A stretch of 64,000 nt of DNA, from assembly GCA_026414165.1 (NCBI GenBank), contig JAOAJN010000006.1, positions 31,350 to 95,349 on the forward strand, given 5' to 3'. Made by a program: the position numbers and the translations under genes. Below are positions 6,695 to 16,138 of this stretch, one piece after another. How positions within the stretch are numbered: the first letter of the stretch is position 1; each line of letters begins with the position of its first letter. Origin of the DNA: Candidatus Methanomethylicaceae archaeon (GTDB lineage Archaea; Thermoproteota; Methanomethylicia; Methanomethylicales; Methanomethylicaceae). A model generated the notes under the pieces. It did no database searches. It had not been told where the DNA came from and worked only from the letters and a program-made list of their open reading frames with translations.

Positions 6695-9562
6695 ATGGAT
6701 GAAATTCTCTCATACTTCTCAAAGCCGATTCAGAGGTTGTTAGAGGAGAGAGGGTTTGGAAAGTTCACCGAGCCTCAGAGGAGGGCTATACCGACCATCC
6801 TTAAAGGAAGTAACGTTTTAATAATTGCGCCCACTGGAACGGGCAAGACCGAGGCGGCCTTCCTGCCAATCTTGGACAAGATAGTCAGGGAGGGAGGAAG
6901 AGGAGGCATAAGGGTACTTTACATAACACCATTGAGGGCGTTGAACAGAGACCTTATGGAAAGGTTACAATGGTGGTGCAGCAGGCTGGACCTGAGGGTG
7001 GCTGTGAGGCACGGGGATACAGAGACTAAGGAGAGAGGTAAGCAGGCGATGGCGCCTCCAGATGTTTTGATAACTACTCCCGAGACACTTCAAGCAATTC
7101 TCCCCGGAAGGAGGCTTAGAAAACACCTCTCCAAGGTGAGGTGGGTGATAGTTGACGAGGTGCATGAGTTAACAAACGACAAGAGGGGTAGTCAGCTTTC
7201 GGTCGGGCTGGAGAGGTTGAGGAGGATAACTGAGGCAGAGCCTCAGATAATCGGGCTCTCCGCAACAATAGGATCCCCCGAAGAGGTTGCCAAGTTCTTG
7301 GTCGGCGTAGGAAGGGACTGTGAAATTGTGAGGGTCTCGGTGGCAAAGGACATGGAGTTAGAGGTGGACATGCCAGAGGCGGACGAAGAAGACGTGAGGT
7401 TGGCGGAGAAGATAGCAACCTTCCCCGAGGTCGCAGCGAGGCTGAGGAGGATAAGGGATCTGGTGGAGAGGTATAGGTCCACGCTGATCTTTACTAATAC
7501 CAGGTCTGAGGCCGAGATCCTTGCCAGCAGGTTCAGGGTTTGGGATATGAACATGCCAGTTAGCATACACCACGGTAGCCTGGCAAAATCCTCAAGGGTC
7601 GAGGCGGAGACAAGTCTCAAGAAGGGGGAGTTGAAGGGCGTGGTTTGTACTTCATCCTTGGAGCTAGGAATCGACATCGGAAGCGTCGATCTTGTGGTTC
7701 AGTACAATTCCCCGAGGCAGGTGACCAGACTCCTCCAAAGAGTGGGGAGGGCGGGACATTGGGTTGGTGGAACCTCGAAGGGGGCAATTATTACTATGGA
7801 CTCGGATGACGCGCTTGAGTCCTTGGTAATAGTCAAGCGTAGCCTTAGAGAAGAGTTGGAAGAAGTGAAGATAATTCGAAAACCCCTAGATGTACTAGTC
7901 CACCAGATAGCAGGCTTGTTGCTGGAATACGGCAGACTCACCGTTGATGAGATTATGGAGATCGTCAGAAGCGCTTACCCATTCCAAGACCTAACTGAGG
8001 AGGAGCTCAAAGAGGTGCTTAAATACATGAGTGAGAGGAGACCGAGGCTCGCTCTCTACGTGCCAGAGGAGGGCGTTGTGATCAAGACGAGACCTTACGA
8101 GAGCATCTTCAGGTACTATTTTGAAAACCTCTCAATGATACCTGAGGAGAAACACTACCTAGTAATTGATGAGGAGAAGGATGAGCCCATAGGTACGCTG
8201 GACGAGGCTTTTGTGGCAGAATATGGTGAGCCAGGAGTGAAGTTTATAGTTAGGGGATCGCCATGGAAGATTGTCCAAATCTACAAAGATGTGGTTTATG
8301 TTAGGGCGGAGGAGGATCCAACAGGTGCTATACCTGATTGGGTGGGAGACGAGATACCCGTGCCCTTCGAAGTGGCACAGGAAGTAGGTAGGATAAAGGG
8401 GAGAGTATGCGAGCTTTTGAGAGTTGGCACACCATTTGAGGATTTGGTCCAAGAGCTCAGGAAGGAGTATCCCGTATCGAGAGAGTTGCTGACCAAGGCG
8501 CTGACAGAAGTAAAGGAGCAAGCTGAAGGTATATGGGAAGTTCCGACTGACAGACTTATCACGGTGGAGGGGTGGGAAGGATACGTAATAGTGAGTTGTT
8601 CCCTAGGGCTCATGATAAACAAGACGCTCTCGAGAGTGCTGGCTTATTTGATCACCATAAGGACTGGGAGCGGTGTTGGGGCTTCTCAGGATCCCTACAG
8701 GATCTACCTGAAGACTTCGGTTGATGTGGATATTGTGGCAGAGGTATTGAAAAGCCTCGATCCAAAAGATGTTGCCAGGCTGGCTGAAGTGTCCGTAGAG
8801 AAGACGGGACTTTTCAGGAGGCGGCTGCTCCATGTGGCAAAGAGGTTCGGCGTTGTAGAGAAGGGGGCCGATCTTAGCGAGATGGGTATGCAGCAACTGG
8901 TGGAAAGTATGAAGGGAACTGTGATATGGAGAGAGGCGATGAAGGAGGTCTTATTCAAGGATCTGGATGTTGAAGGGCTAGAAAGGTTTGCAAGGGGTCT
9001 GAAGGATGGGATCTTCAAGGTCGTCGTTATGGAGAGAGACCTGCCTTTATCACCAATATCGAGAGTCGGCATAAGGAAGTTGAGCTGGAAGACAGACCTA
9101 GTTCCAGCGGACCGGTTGAGGAGGATCTTAATAGAGGCTGGAAAGGCCAGACTTCTGAACGAGGCAAGGGTCGCAGTTTGCTCAGAGTGCTTCAGGTACG
9201 TGGAGAATGTGAAGATCAAGAGGTTTTTGGGGGATTTTGTCTGTCCAGAGTGTGGGTCCAAGAAGATAGGTTTAGTGGATGGAGATCTCCTAGAAGTAGC
9301 ACAGATGGTGTCAGAGAGGGCGGAGAGAGGCAAAGTCTCTGACAAATTCAAAGAGATTTATAAGACAGTACTGGAGAGTGGAGAGCTTATAGGGATCTAT
9401 GGGCTGCCAGCGGCCCTTGTGTTGGCAGCCAAAGGACTCTCTAAGACTGCAATTGTGACGCTAGCATCCTCAAAGACACCAGACATCGATTTCCTCGTAG
9501 ATATGATCCTGAGGGAGGAGAGGGAAGTACTAAGAAAGAGATACAGAAGAACGCACCCATAA
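6695..9562 (+). CDS. lhr: Lhr-type large DEAD/DEAH helicase
   Basis: APTGTGKTEAAFLP, DEVHEL, SATIGSPEEVA, QRVGRAGHWVGGTSKG; C-terminal Zn motif CSECFRYV...CPECGSKK. Confidence 0.92.
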   Translation: MDEILSYFSKPIQRLLEERGFGKFTEPQRRAIPTILKGSNVLIIAPTGTGKTEAAFLPILDKIVREGGRGGIRVLYITPLRALNRDLMERLQWWCSRLDLRVAVRHGDTETKERGKQAMAPPDVLITTPETLQAILPGRRLRKHLSKVRWVIVDEVHELTNDKRGSQLSVGLERLRRITEAEPQIIGLSATIGSPEEVAKFLVGVGRDCEIVRVSVAKDMELEVDMPEADEEDVRLAEKIATFPEVAARLRRIRDLVERYRSTLIFTNTRSEAEILASRFRVWDMNMPVSIHHGSLAKSSRVEAETSLKKGELKGVVCTSSLELGIDIGSVDLVVQYNSPRQVTRLLQRVGRAGHWVGGTSKGAIITMDSDDALESLVIVKRSLREELEEVKIIRKPLDVLVHQIAGLLLEYGRLTVDEIMEIVRSAYPFQDLTEEELKEVLKYMSERRPRLALYVPEEGVVIKTRPYESIFRYYFENLSMIPEEKHYLVIDEEKDEPIGTLDEAFVAEYGEPGVKFIVRGSPWKIVQIYKDVVYVRAEEDPTGAIPDWVGDEIPVPFEVAQEVGRIKGRVCELLRVGTPFEDLVQELRKEYPVSRELLTKALTEVKEQAEGIWEVPTDRLITVEGWEGYVIVSCSLGLMINKTLSRVLAYLITIRTGSGVGASQDPYRIYLKTSVDVDIVAEVLKSLDPKDVARLAEVSVEKTGLFRRRLLHVAKRFGVVEKGADLSEMGMQQLVESMKGTVIWREAMKEVLFKDLDVEGLERFARGLKDGIFKVVVMERDLPLSPISRVGIRKLSWKTDLVPADRLRRILIEAGKARLLNEARVAVCSECFRYVENVKIKRFLGDFVCPECGSKKIGLVDGDLLEVAQMVSERAERGKVSDKFKEIYKTVLESGELIGIYGLPAALVLAAKGLSKTAIVTLASSKTPDIDFLVDMILREEREVLRKRYRRTHP

Positions 9563-10405: not shown

Positions 10406-10975
10406 CTAAAGCTGTTGAGTCTGAGAAGATCCCGCAATAATGCTGACTAAGGTTTTAAGGTCTATCTCGGCGCGAGTCCTCCATCCAATGTAGAGGTTGC
10501 CCTCCTCATCCTCGTCCAAATACCCCTTCCTTATAAACCTGTTGAGGTCTTGGTCGACCTTCCAGTCTGGGAATTTCTCCCTCAGAAGGCCCTCAACCTC
10601 ATTCCTTGTAGCCCTGCCCTGCTTTGAAGTTATATAAGCCAATGCTGCCGCCAATACGGCAAGTGTGTCTATCCTCCAGCCTGAAAGCGAGACCTCGCCG
10701 ATCTGAAGTGGGGACCTGCAGATAACATAGAAGCGAGCCTGCTCAAGATCCTCCTCTGTGGGAGTTTGGTGGTCTATACCGTCCTCATATACGATCTTTA
10801 TCTCCAGCCCTAGCTCATCTAAACGCCTCTCCAGAAGCTTTATTATCTTCATGTAATCCTTGCCCAATACCTTCCTCAGCTCCCACCCCTTAGCACCTGG
10901 TAGGCGGTGATGTTGAAAGAGAAGGAGCTGGGCAGCCTTCTTGAGCTTTCTTGATATGGTGACGTCCTCACTCAT
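10406..10975 (-). CDS. MAGE/Nse3-like winged-helix KITE protein (putative SMC subcomplex subunit)
   Basis: GWRIDTLAVLAAALAYITSKQGRATRNEVEGLLREKF...LNRFIRKGYLDEDEEGNLYIGWRTRAEID resembles the MAGE homology pattern (LLxxVLAxIxxxGNRAxExE...YLEYR..Y.FLWGPRAxxE); last gene of the SMC cassette. Confidence 0.6.
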   Translation of the reverse strand: MSEDVTISRKLKKAAQLLLFQHHRLPGAKGWELRKVLGKDYMKIIKLLERRLDELGLEIKIVYEDGIDHQTPTEEDLEQARFYVICRSPLQIGEVSLSGWRIDTLAVLAAALAYITSKQGRATRNEVEGLLREKFPDWKVDQDLNRFIRKGYLDEDEEGNLYIGWRTRAEIDLKTLVSIIAGSSQTQQL

Positions 10976-11837
10976 TTCTTATCCCTTCAGTTTTTATGCT
11001 ATTTTTCATCGTCATCCATTTCTCATAGGTTATGGAGATGGGCACGGATTTGCCTCCCTTCCTTTGCGTCTGCTTTCCCGCGGTCTCGATCATAATACTC
11101 TCCTCCACAGGGTTGATGATGAGGTTGGCATAGCCGTTCGATATGATGAAGCTTAGTGCGTATGCCCTCAACAGCGTCTCCTCATAGGTATCCCTGATCA
11201 CGAACTTCCAGTAATCAATGGGTCCTCCCTTTGACTCGTAATCTTTAGTCAATTCTTCTTGAAGTCTCCTAACCTCTTCATTGAAAGCGCGCTCAGAAAG
11301 GAATTTCAATCTGATGAGTTCCGAGACCGCCAAGGTCTTTTCCTCTGGGAACTGGGCTGCCTCGATTTCCTTCATTCTCTGGGAAAGCGGGAGGAGCACC
11401 CTCCAGTAATCCAAAGCCTCTAAGAGTCTCTTTGGGGTCAGTTGCTCGGCGGCAATCAAAGGTCTCCAAGCGGCAAGAAGGGCGGATGCAAGCTCTTCCT
11501 TACCTAGGAGCTTTATCTTGACTTCTACGAGGAACGGATCAATAAAGAGTCCTGAGGCACGCCTCTTCACCCAGTCACTCTGAAGTTTTACCATTAAAGA
11601 GAGCTCCTTTAGAGCCTCGGCGTCCATGAGTAGCTCATCGAGAAGCTTCCACTGAGGCAAGAGCCTCTTGAGTACCTGTAACTTTTGGGGAACGTCCACA
11701 AGGAATGGATCCTCCCCTTTGGCCCTTATGCTCTGACACAAGTTTATTATGCGGGCGAGTTCCTCGTAGTACTCTTCTTTACGCGCTCGCTGTGGCAGCT
11801 TTGGCCACCTCCGATCTTCCGTGCACATTTTGGACAA
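10968..11837 (-). CDS. Probable kleisin-like subunit of an SMC complex
   Basis: Helical protein whose C-terminus (TLLRAYALSFIISNGYANLIINPVEESIMIE) resembles a kleisin C-terminal winged helix; sits between the SMC and KITE genes, overlapping both; N-terminal start uncertain. Confidence 0.45.
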   Translation of the reverse strand: MSKMCTEDRRWPKLPQRARKEEYYEELARIINLCQSIRAKGEDPFLVDVPQKLQVLKRLLPQWKLLDELLMDAEALKELSLMVKLQSDWVKRRASGLFIDPFLVEVKIKLLGKEELASALLAAWRPLIAAEQLTPKRLLEALDYWRVLLPLSQRMKEIEAAQFPEEKTLAVSELIRLKFLSERAFNEEVRRLQEELTKDYESKGGPIDYWKFVIRDTYEETLLRAYALSFIISNGYANLIINPVEESIMIETAGKQTQRKGGKSVPISITYEKWMTMKNSIKTEGIRNE

Positions 11838-13542
11838 ATATTATGTTCGCGAACTCGCCGACCGCGCTGAGCTGACTCGGGGTGATCACTATAAACTGCA
11901 CATCTGAACTGTCATTCATGAAGGAGAAGAGCATCCTCATCATCGACTCCCTGTTGTGCGGATCCATATGCACATCGAACTCGTCGACGGCCCTCACCGG
12001 TGATTTCAGGTGATCCTGCAATGCCAGAAGGAAGGCCATGGTTGCCACAGCCCTCTCCCCTCCGCTCTGAGAATAAGCATCCAATAGTACAGGCGATGTG
12101 CCCCGAAATCCAACCGTGATCTCCACCCCGGCCCTGTCTGGGTCGTCCATATTCAGTAGACGTATGGCGCCAGTTCCGCCGACCCTTCCCAAGACAGAAC
12201 GGTATGTCGGGTTGATATCGTCTATGAGCTTTTCCATTACTCCTCTCCAGACCCTCTTCCTCTCCTCCAACTCTTCGATGGTTTTCCGCCTATTCTCACC
12301 TACGACCTGAGCCTTCTGCTTCAACTCGTTGTAGGTTTTCAAGTAGGTTTGGTACATGGAGGGGGCATCCTCGGGGACGTCGCCAAGGGATAGCAGATGA
12401 GCATTCACAAACTTTATCTCGTCGGAGATCTCCAAGATTGTCCTACTGGTCTCGATCCTTTCACCTGCCTTATCCTTGAACTTCTCGGACTCTGTCAGAG
12501 ATGCCTTGGCCTCCTGCAAAGAATTTTGCAATTCCTTTAGCTCCCTCTCGAGTTCGCCCTTGCGGTAGCGCATCACCGCCTCATCCACCCTCAGCTCTAC
12601 ATACCTCTTGACAACCTCGTCAAGTCGCTCGTCTACTAGTCCCAGCTCCTTCAGTTCCGCTTCTCCTTTCTTGACATCCAGAAGTATGTTCCTGAACTTT
12701 TCCTTCAATAACAGATAATCTCCCCAGAGGTCTTTCGCCTCCTCGCTCTTTGTGCGGATCCCCTTCTCTATCGCCTCGAGCTGGGACGACTTGAGGCGGA
12801 TCTTCTCCTCGATCTGTGATACCGCACGCTCATTCTTCAATATCTGGGCCCATATCAATTCCCTCTCAAGGTAGGCCTTCCTCTCTAGTAGGGACTTCTT
12901 CTCGTTATACTTGTCGTTTAGCTCCTTCCAGTATGCCAAGGTTTGCTCGGCACTGGTAAGAAGCTGTGATGTAGCCTCCTCCTCACCCAGTATCCTGTTG
13001 AGCCTCTCCTCAGACTCGTAAATGGCGCGCCTATACTGGGAGAAGCCAACCGCCTCCTCCACCATCTTGAGTTTCTCTTCAGGTGAGGTAATAGCGAACT
13101 CTTCTATCATATTTTGGTGCATTATTATGAGCATGTTATCGGGGTTCATCCCAACACTCTTAAAGAGTCTATTCACATCAAATTTGCTAGCTTGCCTGCC
13201 ATTTATCTCAAACCAGTAGGCACCATCCCTCTTCAGATACCTCGAGACCGAGATAATGTCGTTGTTTATGTAGGGGACGGGGCGCTTTCCATTTTCTGCT
13301 CTGTTATCCAGCAACAGAGTGACCCTGGCAGTTTCCTTGCCCCTTCGGATGAGGTCTGCCAACTTCCTAGAACGCTCGGTGTAGCTTTGTCCTGTTGCCA
13401 CGGATATCGCGATTAGTATTGATGACTTTCCAGCACCGTTGGGACCGCAAATCAGATTGAGTCCGCGTCTGAGGGGCACCCTAGCGTACTCATAAGACAT
13501 GAAGTTCTCCAGTACCACCTCGAGTATTGTGAGAGAGCTCAT
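11779..13542 (-). CDS. SMC-like ATPase with Smc5/6-type head motifs, short arms
   Basis: Walker A CGPNGAGKSSILIAI; MIIMHQNMIEEFAITSPEEKLKMVEEAVG; signature/Walker B SQSGGERAVATMAFLLALQDHLKSPVRAVDEFDVHMDPHNR; about 250 residues of coiled coil between head halves. Confidence 0.88.
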   Translation of the reverse strand: MSSLTILEVVLENFMSYEYARVPLRRGLNLICGPNGAGKSSILIAISVATGQSYTERSRKLADLIRRGKETARVTLLLDNRAENGKRPVPYINNDIISVSRYLKRDGAYWFEINGRQASKFDVNRLFKSVGMNPDNMLIIMHQNMIEEFAITSPEEKLKMVEEAVGFSQYRRAIYESEERLNRILGEEEATSQLLTSAEQTLAYWKELNDKYNEKKSLLERKAYLERELIWAQILKNERAVSQIEEKIRLKSSQLEAIEKGIRTKSEEAKDLWGDYLLLKEKFRNILLDVKKGEAELKELGLVDERLDEVVKRYVELRVDEAVMRYRKGELERELKELQNSLQEAKASLTESEKFKDKAGERIETSRTILEISDEIKFVNAHLLSLGDVPEDAPSMYQTYLKTYNELKQKAQVVGENRRKTIEELEERKRVWRGVMEKLIDDINPTYRSVLGRVGGTGAIRLLNMDDPDRAGVEITVGFRGTSPVLLDAYSQSGGERAVATMAFLLALQDHLKSPVRAVDEFDVHMDPHNRESMMRMLFSFMNDSSDVQFIVITPSQLSAVGEFANIIFVQNVHGRSEVAKAATASA

Positions 13543-13799
13543 ATCGGGGACCCCTCAGGGCGCCTCAAATTCCACAGAAGACCCTTATAAGCATCACTTT
13601 CACCCTTTATAGGTCGACTCCTTGAAGTTTTGTGATGTGAGAGTATTCAAATGCGTATAGATTGTATATCGTGATTATTATTAAAATTTTTTACTTATAT
13701 AATTTCAATATTAATTTAATATTTTCTTTTACTGACAAAAAGTCGAGTAAAGTTTATGTAACGAGATTCATTTTAAATTGGTGTTCATGGCGATCTTGG

Positions 13800-15338
13800 A
13801 TGGCGAGCATCGAGATAAAACAGCTTATACATAATGGAGTCCTCATACCTGTTTACAAGCCCGTAGGATTCAAGATAAAATTCAGGGGAGAGGAAATCTT
13901 ACTTACCCCAGAGCAGGAAGAGATGGCGGTGGCTTGGGTTAAGAAGCTATCTACAGATTACGTGAAAGATAAGGTGTTCGTTAGAAATTTCTTCAAGGAT
14001 TTCGGAAAAGCATTAGGTATAAAGGGCAAGATCCAACCTGAAGATTTTGATTTCTCGGAGATAATCGCTTGGTTGGAGAGGGAGAAGGCAAGAAAAGAGG
14101 CTATGAGTAAAGAGGAGAAGAAGGCGCTGGCACAGGAGAGAAAGAGGATAAGAGAAGAGAACAAGAAAAAGTATGGATTTGCAATTGTGAATGGAATGCC
14201 GATGGAGATCTCTAATTATATGGTAGAACCGGCCTGCATTTTCATGGGTAGAGGAGATCACCCCCTTAGAGGCAGATGGAAGCCAGGGGTTAAACCGGAG
14301 GACATAACCCTGAACCTCTCTCCGGACGCGAAGGTGCCTGATCCACCGAATGGGGGGTCTTGGAAGTCTGTTGTATTCGACCCGACCTCGCTCTGGATCG
14401 CCAGCTGGAGAGACAAGCTCAGGGGCAAGATGAAGTATGTATGGCTCTCTGATACAGCGTACATAAAACAAGTAAGGGATATTGAGAAGTTCAACAAGGC
14501 ATGGGAACTGGAAAAAATAATCGATAAGGTCAGGGAGCACATAAAAAGGGGTTTAGAGTCGCACGATCTGCTAGAGAGAAAGATCGCTACAGTATGCTAC
14601 CTCATTGATGAACTGAAACTCAGGGTCGGCGATGAGAAGGACGAGGATGAGGCAGACACTGTTGGCGCGACGACCCTCAGACCAGAACATCTGAAATTCA
14701 ACCCGGACGGTACAATAACTTTTGACTTCCTCGGTAAAGACTCAGTTCGATGGGTCAGCACTATCAACCCACCTGAGGTCGTCTATAGGAATCTAAAGGA
14801 GTTCATAGCAGAAGGAAACGAGACCATATTTAACGGTGTGAGATCTCAGAAGGTAAACGCTTACCTAGCCGAAGTTATGCCTGGACTGACTGCCAAGGTT
14901 TTCAGAACCTACCATGCATCCACAACCGCAAAGAGGGCACTCCAAAGTGCCGATGTCAAAAAAGATGATCCTTTATACGTCAAGAAGTACTATGCGACCA
15001 TGGCGAATTTGGAGGCTGCCAAGGTTTGTAACCACAAGAGAAAACTGCCCAAGAATTGGGAGGAGAGCCTCAGGAAGAAGATTGAAAGGTTGAAGGCGCT
15101 AAGGGAGAAGAATGCCAAAAAGGAGAAGATAGAAGAACTCAAACTCAAGATCAATGCGATGAAAGCGACGAGAGATTACAACTTAAACACCTCCCTGAAG
15201 AACTACATTGATCCTAGGGTCTATGCAGACTGGGGGAGGAGGATAGATTTTGACTGGAAGCTCTACTATTCGAAATCCCTCCAGAGAAGGTTTGCGTGGG
15301 TGGACGGGGGAGACCTCGGAGCAGGGTCAATTTTTTAA
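13800..15338 (+). CDS. DNA topoisomerase IB (eukaryote-type)
   Basis: In-frame ATG at 13800 starts the conserved region MASIEIKQLIHNGVLIPVYKP; PGLTAKVFRTYHASTTA; C-terminal catalytic-region sequence TSLKNYIDPRVYADWGRRIDFDWKLYYSKSLQRRFAW. The ORF-track start 13662 adds an AT-rich, probably untranslated leader. Confidence 0.93.
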   Translation: MASIEIKQLIHNGVLIPVYKPVGFKIKFRGEEILLTPEQEEMAVAWVKKLSTDYVKDKVFVRNFFKDFGKALGIKGKIQPEDFDFSEIIAWLEREKARKEAMSKEEKKALAQERKRIREENKKKYGFAIVNGMPMEISNYMVEPACIFMGRGDHPLRGRWKPGVKPEDITLNLSPDAKVPDPPNGGSWKSVVFDPTSLWIASWRDKLRGKMKYVWLSDTAYIKQVRDIEKFNKAWELEKIIDKVREHIKRGLESHDLLERKIATVCYLIDELKLRVGDEKDEDEADTVGATTLRPEHLKFNPDGTITFDFLGKDSVRWVSTINPPEVVYRNLKEFIAEGNETIFNGVRSQKVNAYLAEVMPGLTAKVFRTYHASTTAKRALQSADVKKDDPLYVKKYYATMANLEAAKVCNHKRKLPKNWEESLRKKIERLKALREKNAKKEKIEELKLKINAMKATRDYNLNTSLKNYIDPRVYADWGRRIDFDWKLYYSKSLQRRFAWVDGGDLGAGSIF

Positions 15339-15454: not shown

Positions 15455-16138
15455 ATGGTCCTTGCAGGGAAGGTCTTCAAGATTAAAGAGGATGTGGACC
15501 TAGCAACGATCTCGGGAAAGCTGAAGGGATACCGACAGGAGGAGGAATTCACGCATGGGGATGAAAAGATTACACTTGTTACAGAGATAGGAGATCTCGT
15601 TTTGGGCTCAGACTACCTTGAGGGGACTTTTTTCCAAGATGTTCCGTTTACCGTACGGCATAGGGGCGGAGAAAGGCTCGTGGTCAAGACTTTGGAGGCA
15701 CCATTCCTGTTTCAGGTCGATAGGGAAAGAATTTTGCTCATTATTCTCGAGAAGAAGAGAACTGCAAACAACATAGCAAATCAGCTGAGCAAGATATTAT
15801 TCATCTCTGCGGGGAGCATCGTCGAAGCAAAGATCCCACCCGAGACGCTCAGAAAATTTCATGAAGCGAACCCGGAGGACACGAAGGTCATATTCTTTGA
15901 CGGTGTGGATATACCAAATGTGGATAAACTCTCGCTTTATGGATCTCAGCTCGCCGACACTGCGCTGTACAATGAGTACCTGACCCACGGAACCATATGG
16001 TATATCGTATTCAAGTCAAGGAAATATAGTATAGTTGCAGGAGTGACTAGAAACTCGGTTGTAACGGCATTCAGCGAGGTCAAGCCGAAGGATTTCCTTG
16101 ACTACATCAGAGATGAGATCTTCCCTCTCATCGAGTGA
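15455..16138 (+). CDS. Hypothetical protein downstream of topoisomerase IB
   Basis: 227-aa ORF with normal composition; no family recognised. Confidence 0.7.
   Translation: MVLAGKVFKIKEDVDLATISGKLKGYRQEEEFTHGDEKITLVTEIGDLVLGSDYLEGTFFQDVPFTVRHRGGERLVVKTLEAPFLFQVDRERILLIILEKKRTANNIANQLSKILFISAGSIVEAKIPPETLRKFHEANPEDTKVIFFDGVDIPNVDKLSLYGSQLADTALYNEYLTHGTIWYIVFKSRKYSIVAGVTRNSVVTAFSEVKPKDFLDYIRDEIFPLIE

Follow-up and report, generated by a model that had tools for sequence, protein, structure and literature searches.

Does an archaeal gene whose product resembles the MAGE domain encode part of an Smc5/6-type complex? Smc5/6 is a DNA-clamping machine known from eukaryotes, and accounts of it usually treat it as eukaryotic and as requiring two SMC proteins and two KITE subunits. 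The window (the whole stretch of 64,000 nucleotides that was analysed) carries a gene that the original prediction took for an archaeal MAGE/Nse3 homologue located next to an Smc5/6-like ATPase. Our analysis indicates that this gene very probably encodes the KITE subunit of an archaeal Smc5/6-type SMC–kleisin–KITE complex specified by one operon. Two features describe the gene itself (window positions, with supporting evidence in brackets).

10406 to 10975, minus strand: KITE subunit with an Nse1/Nse3-type tandem winged helix, 189 amino acids (open reading frame, conservation, model and fold search, Pfam MAGE and Nse1)
10460 to 10681, minus strand: second winged-helix half with the MAGE-like segment GWRIDTLAVLAAALAYI...IGWRTRAEID (open reading frame, model, alignment of the consensus to MAGE)

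The reading frame holds exactly the sequence strings on which the original prediction was based, and its orthologues establish that it is a genuine gene. It begins with ATG, overlaps the kleisin stop by 8 nucleotides and comes third and last in its operon, after the genes for an SMC ATPase and a kleisin. The nearest relatives of the window place it in Ca. Methanomethylicota (Verstraetearchaeota). Of 61 related genomes, 38 carry an orthologue. Within the phylum, the KITE is present in 69 of 151 sampled genomes and as exactly one copy in every one of these 69. A scan of GTDB genomes recovered 327 stretches related to the KITE. The titles of the best 80 of these name Methanomethylicota, Bathyarchaeota, Nitrososphaeria/Nitrososphaerales, Thaumarchaeota and similar archaea, and all 80 are TACK-type archaea by title. 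Residues that are invariant among the orthologues include G27, G30, E32, G38, W165, R166 and E170.

An AlphaFold2 model derived from 25 orthologues (pLDDT 86, pTM 0.75) adopts a tandem winged helix, and its secondary structure meets the tandem winged-helix criterion of the KITE superfamily, matching Nse1, Nse3, MukE and ScpB. When the model is searched against the PDB with Foldseek, the first matches are 7dg2_C, 5hvq_D, 5hvq_C and 7dg2_A, with E values from 8e-6 to 1.9e-5. The top two of these are the MAGE-domain chain (Nse3) of the Nse1–Nse3–Nse4 complex (7dg2_C, 8e-6) and MAGE-G1 (5hvq_D); the other two are the Nse1 chains paired with them. Nse1 is equally close, with TM-scores of 0.66 to 7dg2_A (Nse1) and 0.59 to 7dg2_C (Nse3). 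The KITE chains of yeast Smc5/6, MukE (1.5e-3) and ScpB (3.8e-3) rank after the top four.

The presence of ScpB among the fold matches, along with the C-terminal domain of ScpA, brings up the canonical prokaryotic condensin. A diverged Smc–ScpAB, wherein the KITE would be ScpB and the kleisin ScpA, has an equal three-part logic of SMC, kleisin and KITE. However, Nse3 and Nse1 match the fold better than ScpB does, ScpB does not feature among the families in the Pfam listing of 64 KITE orthologues, and archaeal Smc–ScpA has been argued to be generally without a kite (PMC7055376). With the searches for ScpA, the hinge and canonical SMCs described below, we regard this explanation as very unlikely. 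The protein could also be an ordinary winged helix-turn-helix transcription regulator that is co-transcribed by chance, given its winged-helix fold and the fact that 2 of the 64 orthologues match PaaX. The tandem architecture, the best structural matches to Nse1 and Nse3, and the invariant adjacency to the kleisin gene leave this possibility close to negligible. A clearly better match to ScpB or to an unrelated winged helix-turn-helix family, which would have refuted the original prediction, was not obtained (3.8e-3 for ScpB versus 8e-6 for Nse3).

The sequence signal pointing to MAGE is faint. When the 64 orthologues were compared with 24,736 Pfam families, MAGE was matched by the most members (6, best E value 2.8e-4), followed by SMC_Nse1 (4 members, best 0.015). 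The sole match of a consensus of 99 orthologues is a weak one to MAGE (E value 0.022), which pairs residues 80–177 with profile positions 117–206 and covers the very region aligned in the original prediction. No KITE sequence seen passes the MAGE cut-off (PF01454), including those in 31 genomes (0/31), and the consensus scores 15 bits against the required 25. The single KITE sequence from the window gave no MAGE match and only noise in Pfam and PDB searches, and a KITE profile found no KITE protein among PDB sequences. Comparison by hhalign with a shallow profile of five mammalian MAGE sequences was not significant (probability 1%), and the short alignment obtained with these five segments has the register that had been proposed. 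Taken across the family, though not in the window sequence by itself, the resemblance to MAGE exceeds chance, and the signal toward MAGE and SMC_Nse1 is weak but specific.

The original reading as an archaeal MAGE/Nse3 homologue is supported, with a refinement: the fold is matched best by Nse3 and MAGE-G1, but it lies equally near Nse1 and the MAGE cut-off is not reached. Because the protein lies no nearer to Nse3 than to Nse1 and is single-copy, 'KITE of the Nse1/Nse3 type' is a safer description than 'MAGE family member'. The C-terminal variant RING of Nse1 is absent from the KITE, since its 189 amino acids include only one cysteine. The finding of one KITE per sampled genome suggests a state before the Nse1/Nse3 duplication, and we infer that the archaeal protein possibly represents the condition before Nse1 and Nse3 diverged.

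The middle gene of the operon, which the original prediction had not recognized, is an Nse4-type kleisin, an assignment based on the family consensus and on fold matching.

10968 to 11837, minus strand: kleisin of Nse4 type, 289 amino acids from a TTG start, with the first ATG at 11828, overlapping the SMC stop (Pfam Nse4_C, PDB profile match to EID3/NSE4b, model and Foldseek)
10992 to 11222, minus strand: C-terminal winged-helix domain of the kleisin, Nse4_C region, residues 206–282 (Pfam Nse4_C, Foldseek)

Specifically, 21 of 26 kleisin orthologues match Nse4_C (best E value 3.5e-7). The curated cut-off is exceeded in five genomes and in none of 14 control genomes. The family consensus, computed from 99 sequences, scores 28.6 bits against the cut-off of 26, and the window copy alone falls below it (19 versus 26 bits). 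A kleisin profile searched against the PDB matches human EID3/NSE4b (7.9e-6) and yeast Nse4 (0.0065) and reaches ScpA only at 0.057. The predicted structure starts with N-terminal helices, one of them long, and continues through a linker to a C-terminal winged helix, which is the layout expected of a kleisin, and yeast Nse4 chains are its best Foldseek matches, although confidence in the model is modest (pTM 0.39).

The first gene of the operon encodes the ATPase.

11779 to 13542, minus strand: SMC ATPase of Smc5/6 type, 587 amino acids, with short arms, no hinge and no CxxC hook (profile scores, motifs, head tree)
13423 to 13446, minus strand: Walker A, GPNGAGKS, SMC residues 33–40 (sequence; mostly invariant positions)
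12493 to 12822, minus strand: coiled-coil apex region, residues 241–350, least conserved and variable in length, where the hinge is absent (SMC alignment)
12052 to 12069, minus strand: ABC signature QSGGER, residues 492–497, as in Smc5 (alignment)
11962 to 11988, minus strand: Walker B VDEFDVHMD, residues 519–527, as in Smc6, where it reads DEFDVFMD (alignment)

A profile of 21 SMC orthologues scores approximately 223–224 bits against yeast Smc5 and Smc6 and 211 and 180 bits against the SMC6 and SMC5 chains of 9lwi. The best prokaryotic Smc chain reaches 166 bits and Smc2 140. These values serve only as a guide because the chains differ in length. In a head-domain tree that included canonical archaeal SMCs and Rad50-like proteins, the operon SMCs form a clade with yeast Smc5 and Smc6 (UFboot 97). 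Eukaryotes are represented there by only these two yeast proteins, and the branches are long, yet the clade agrees with that published for an archaeal 'SMC5/6-related' SMC and Smc5/6 (PMC9389158). On this sequence evidence, the operon SMC is of Smc5/6 type by its head, and profile scores, motifs and tree confirm the original description of the neighbouring ATPase. By contrast, the protein scores far below the cut-off of the canonical SMC model (196 versus 729 bits) and lies outside the canonical archaeal SMCs in the tree, both of which speak against Smc–ScpAB.

The absence of a hinge, also missed in the original prediction, distinguishes this SMC. Orthologues, fragments excluded, are 572–726 amino acids long, with arms of only about 135 residues on each side. 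No hinge model is among the matches listed for the operon SMC, and its HMMER alignment to Smc6 skips residues of roughly 507–705. No CxxC (zinc) hook is present in 78 SMCs, and the ASRP model NF045487 is not passed (49 versus 300 bits). The Smc5/6 criterion of two different SMCs joined at their hinges is not met, as the locus has one such SMC gene and the hinge domain is missing.

Neither the SMC hinge (PF06470) nor ScpA (PF02616) was found in 31 close relatives, and 10 and 9 of 14 control genomes, respectively, were positive. This result further undermines the Smc–ScpAB reading. Although the window genome is 86% complete, the absence of hinge and ScpA matches is common to more complete relatives. 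The KITE operon encodes the only such SMC machine detected in the organism. A second SMC-superfamily protein in the same genome, of about 706 amino acids (G000:C1:21325-23367, locus L144), is Rad50/ASRP-like.

Other lineages of the phylum differ. Among the 151 genomes, 24 have both the KITE complex and a hinge SMC, 45 only the KITE complex, 32 only the hinge SMC and 50 neither, such that the two coexist in 24 of the 69 KITE genomes. Mutual exclusion across the phylum was accordingly rejected (p = 0.6). The hinge SMC is replaced in the class to which the window belongs, a pattern that does not extend to the phylum as a whole.

The order SMC–kleisin–KITE, on the same strand and with overlapping ends, recurs across loci. 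The kleisin adjoins the KITE in all 74 loci with room for it, and the SMC is adjacent in 63 of 72 loci, the other nine having no adjacent intact SMC gene. On two complete Bathyarchaeal chromosomes (L091 and L121), kleisin and KITE are present with no SMC within about 5 kb upstream; it may sit elsewhere. Three further genes of the window belong to this neighbourhood.

6695 to 9562, plus strand: Lhr-type DNA helicase, a recurrent neighbour (family matches)
13662 to 15338, plus strand: eukaryotic-type topoisomerase IB (PF01028/PF02919), a divergent neighbour (family matches)
15455 to 16138, plus strand: uncharacterized 227-amino-acid protein, a candidate accessory factor (divergent position, co-occurrence with the KITE)

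The helicase gene lies close to the operon in 39 of 108 loci, with some species represented more than once, and topoisomerase IB homologues do so in 17 of 108 (loci partly redundant), the latter recurring within the lineage. Both neighbours fit DNA maintenance, but they constitute only context.

Some SMC ATPases serve in anti-plasmid or anti-phage systems of the Wadjet, Lamassu or ASRP kind, and the operon might be another. The SMC does give weak PADLOC matches to SMC/ABC-type ATPases (mad3, AriA, LmuB and JetC), in addition to its weak ASRP match. PADLOC finds no match for the kleisin or the KITE, however, the zinc hook is lacking, and the Smc5/6 scores of the SMC are far higher. Moreover, the operon is single-copy and kept through most of the lineage with conserved gene order and neighbours, a vertical and stable inheritance with no linked effector nuclease so far. 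A defence role is extremely unlikely on these grounds. Canonical ScpB/ScpA, ASRP/coalescin, defence systems and a plain transcription regulator were all rejected as candidates.

In 37 fetched loci, not all from different species, the gene for the 227-amino-acid protein and that for the SMC are divergently oriented, and the protein has no convincing match in Pfam, NCBIfam or the PDB. It occurs with the KITE in 64 of the 151 genomes; 5 have only the KITE, 5 only the protein and 77 neither. Co-occurrence in 64 of the 74 genomes holding either (Fisher p 3e-30, uncorrected for shared ancestry) includes genomes with the two genes on different contigs, and no such association is seen with the hinge SMC in the same genomes (p 0.24). 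A functional link between this protein and the KITE complex is likely, although its nature is undetermined.

The archaeal Smc5/6-type complex appears to draw on a single gene each for motor, linker and KITE. How these parts assemble and in what stoichiometry, the clamping of DNA, and a part in maintaining or repairing the chromosome are inferred only. On binding ATP, two SMC copies would join at their ATPase heads. The kleisin may then link the two heads, its N-terminal helices holding one at the neck and its C-terminal winged helix holding the other. A pair of KITEs, a homodimer in place of the Nse1–Nse3 heterodimer, would sit on the middle of the kleisin and close a DNA clamp above the heads. 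In the absence of a model of the complex, these contacts and the dimerization are inferences, and kleisin binding by the KITE is supported by gene adjacency alone. In DNA-bound yeast Smc5/6, the heads, Nse4 and Nse3 enclose DNA (PMC9191643). By analogy, the archaeal complex could carry out ATP-driven clamping of DNA between the engaged heads and the kleisin–KITE bridge. Having no hinge and only short arms, it would likely act close to the heads, by clamping or bridging DNA or by translocating in short steps, and not as a large loop-enclosing ring.

The core of eukaryotic Smc5/6 (Smc5, Smc6, Nse4, Nse1 and Nse3) comprises the same three subunit classes as the archaeal operon, with which it shares the SMC head signature and Walker B motifs, an Nse4-type kleisin and an Nse1/Nse3-like tandem winged-helix protein. 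The archaeal version differs in having one SMC and one KITE instead of two of each, a single operon, a KITE without a RING and a short-armed SMC without a hinge. Bacterial Smc–ScpAB and MukBEF share the architecture of SMC, kleisin and KITE, but they have long arms with a hinge and use ScpA/ScpB or MukF/MukE, whereas the archaeal KITE and kleisin are nearer to the Nse proteins. Like the operon SMC, archaeal ASRP/coalescin proteins (ClsN, Sph) are short SMC-related ATPases, but most carry a zinc hook; the operon SMC lacks CxxC and scores well below the ASRP cut-off.

An archaeal SMC5/6-related SMC that likewise groups with Smc5/6 and not with canonical SMCs is already published (Yoshinaga & Inagaki; PMC9389158). 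Our analysis adds the kleisin and KITE partners (kleisins are unmentioned there), the operon and the missing hinge; identity with the published sequences is not established. The literature searched contained no account of archaeal subunits of the Nse4 or Nse1/3 type, although a 2024 preprint on the prokaryotic roots of SMC complexes may already report them.

We speculate, with considerable doubt, that whole archaeal lineages have a hinge-less minimal Smc5/6 of pre-duplication type (one SMC, one Nse4 and one KITE) as their sole chromosomal SMC complex, and that the 227-amino-acid protein is an unrecognized fourth component supplying a function absent along with the hinge, such as loading or dimerization. 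The operon qualifies the view that archaeal SMC complexes are without kite subunits (PMC7055376), and its hinge-less SMC offers a natural test of an SMC complex working without a hinge. With one of each subunit, the archaeal operon is a candidate for the state that preceded the Smc5/Smc6 and Nse1/Nse3 duplications, and it would connect the MAGE family's origin with the maintenance of archaeal chromosomes.
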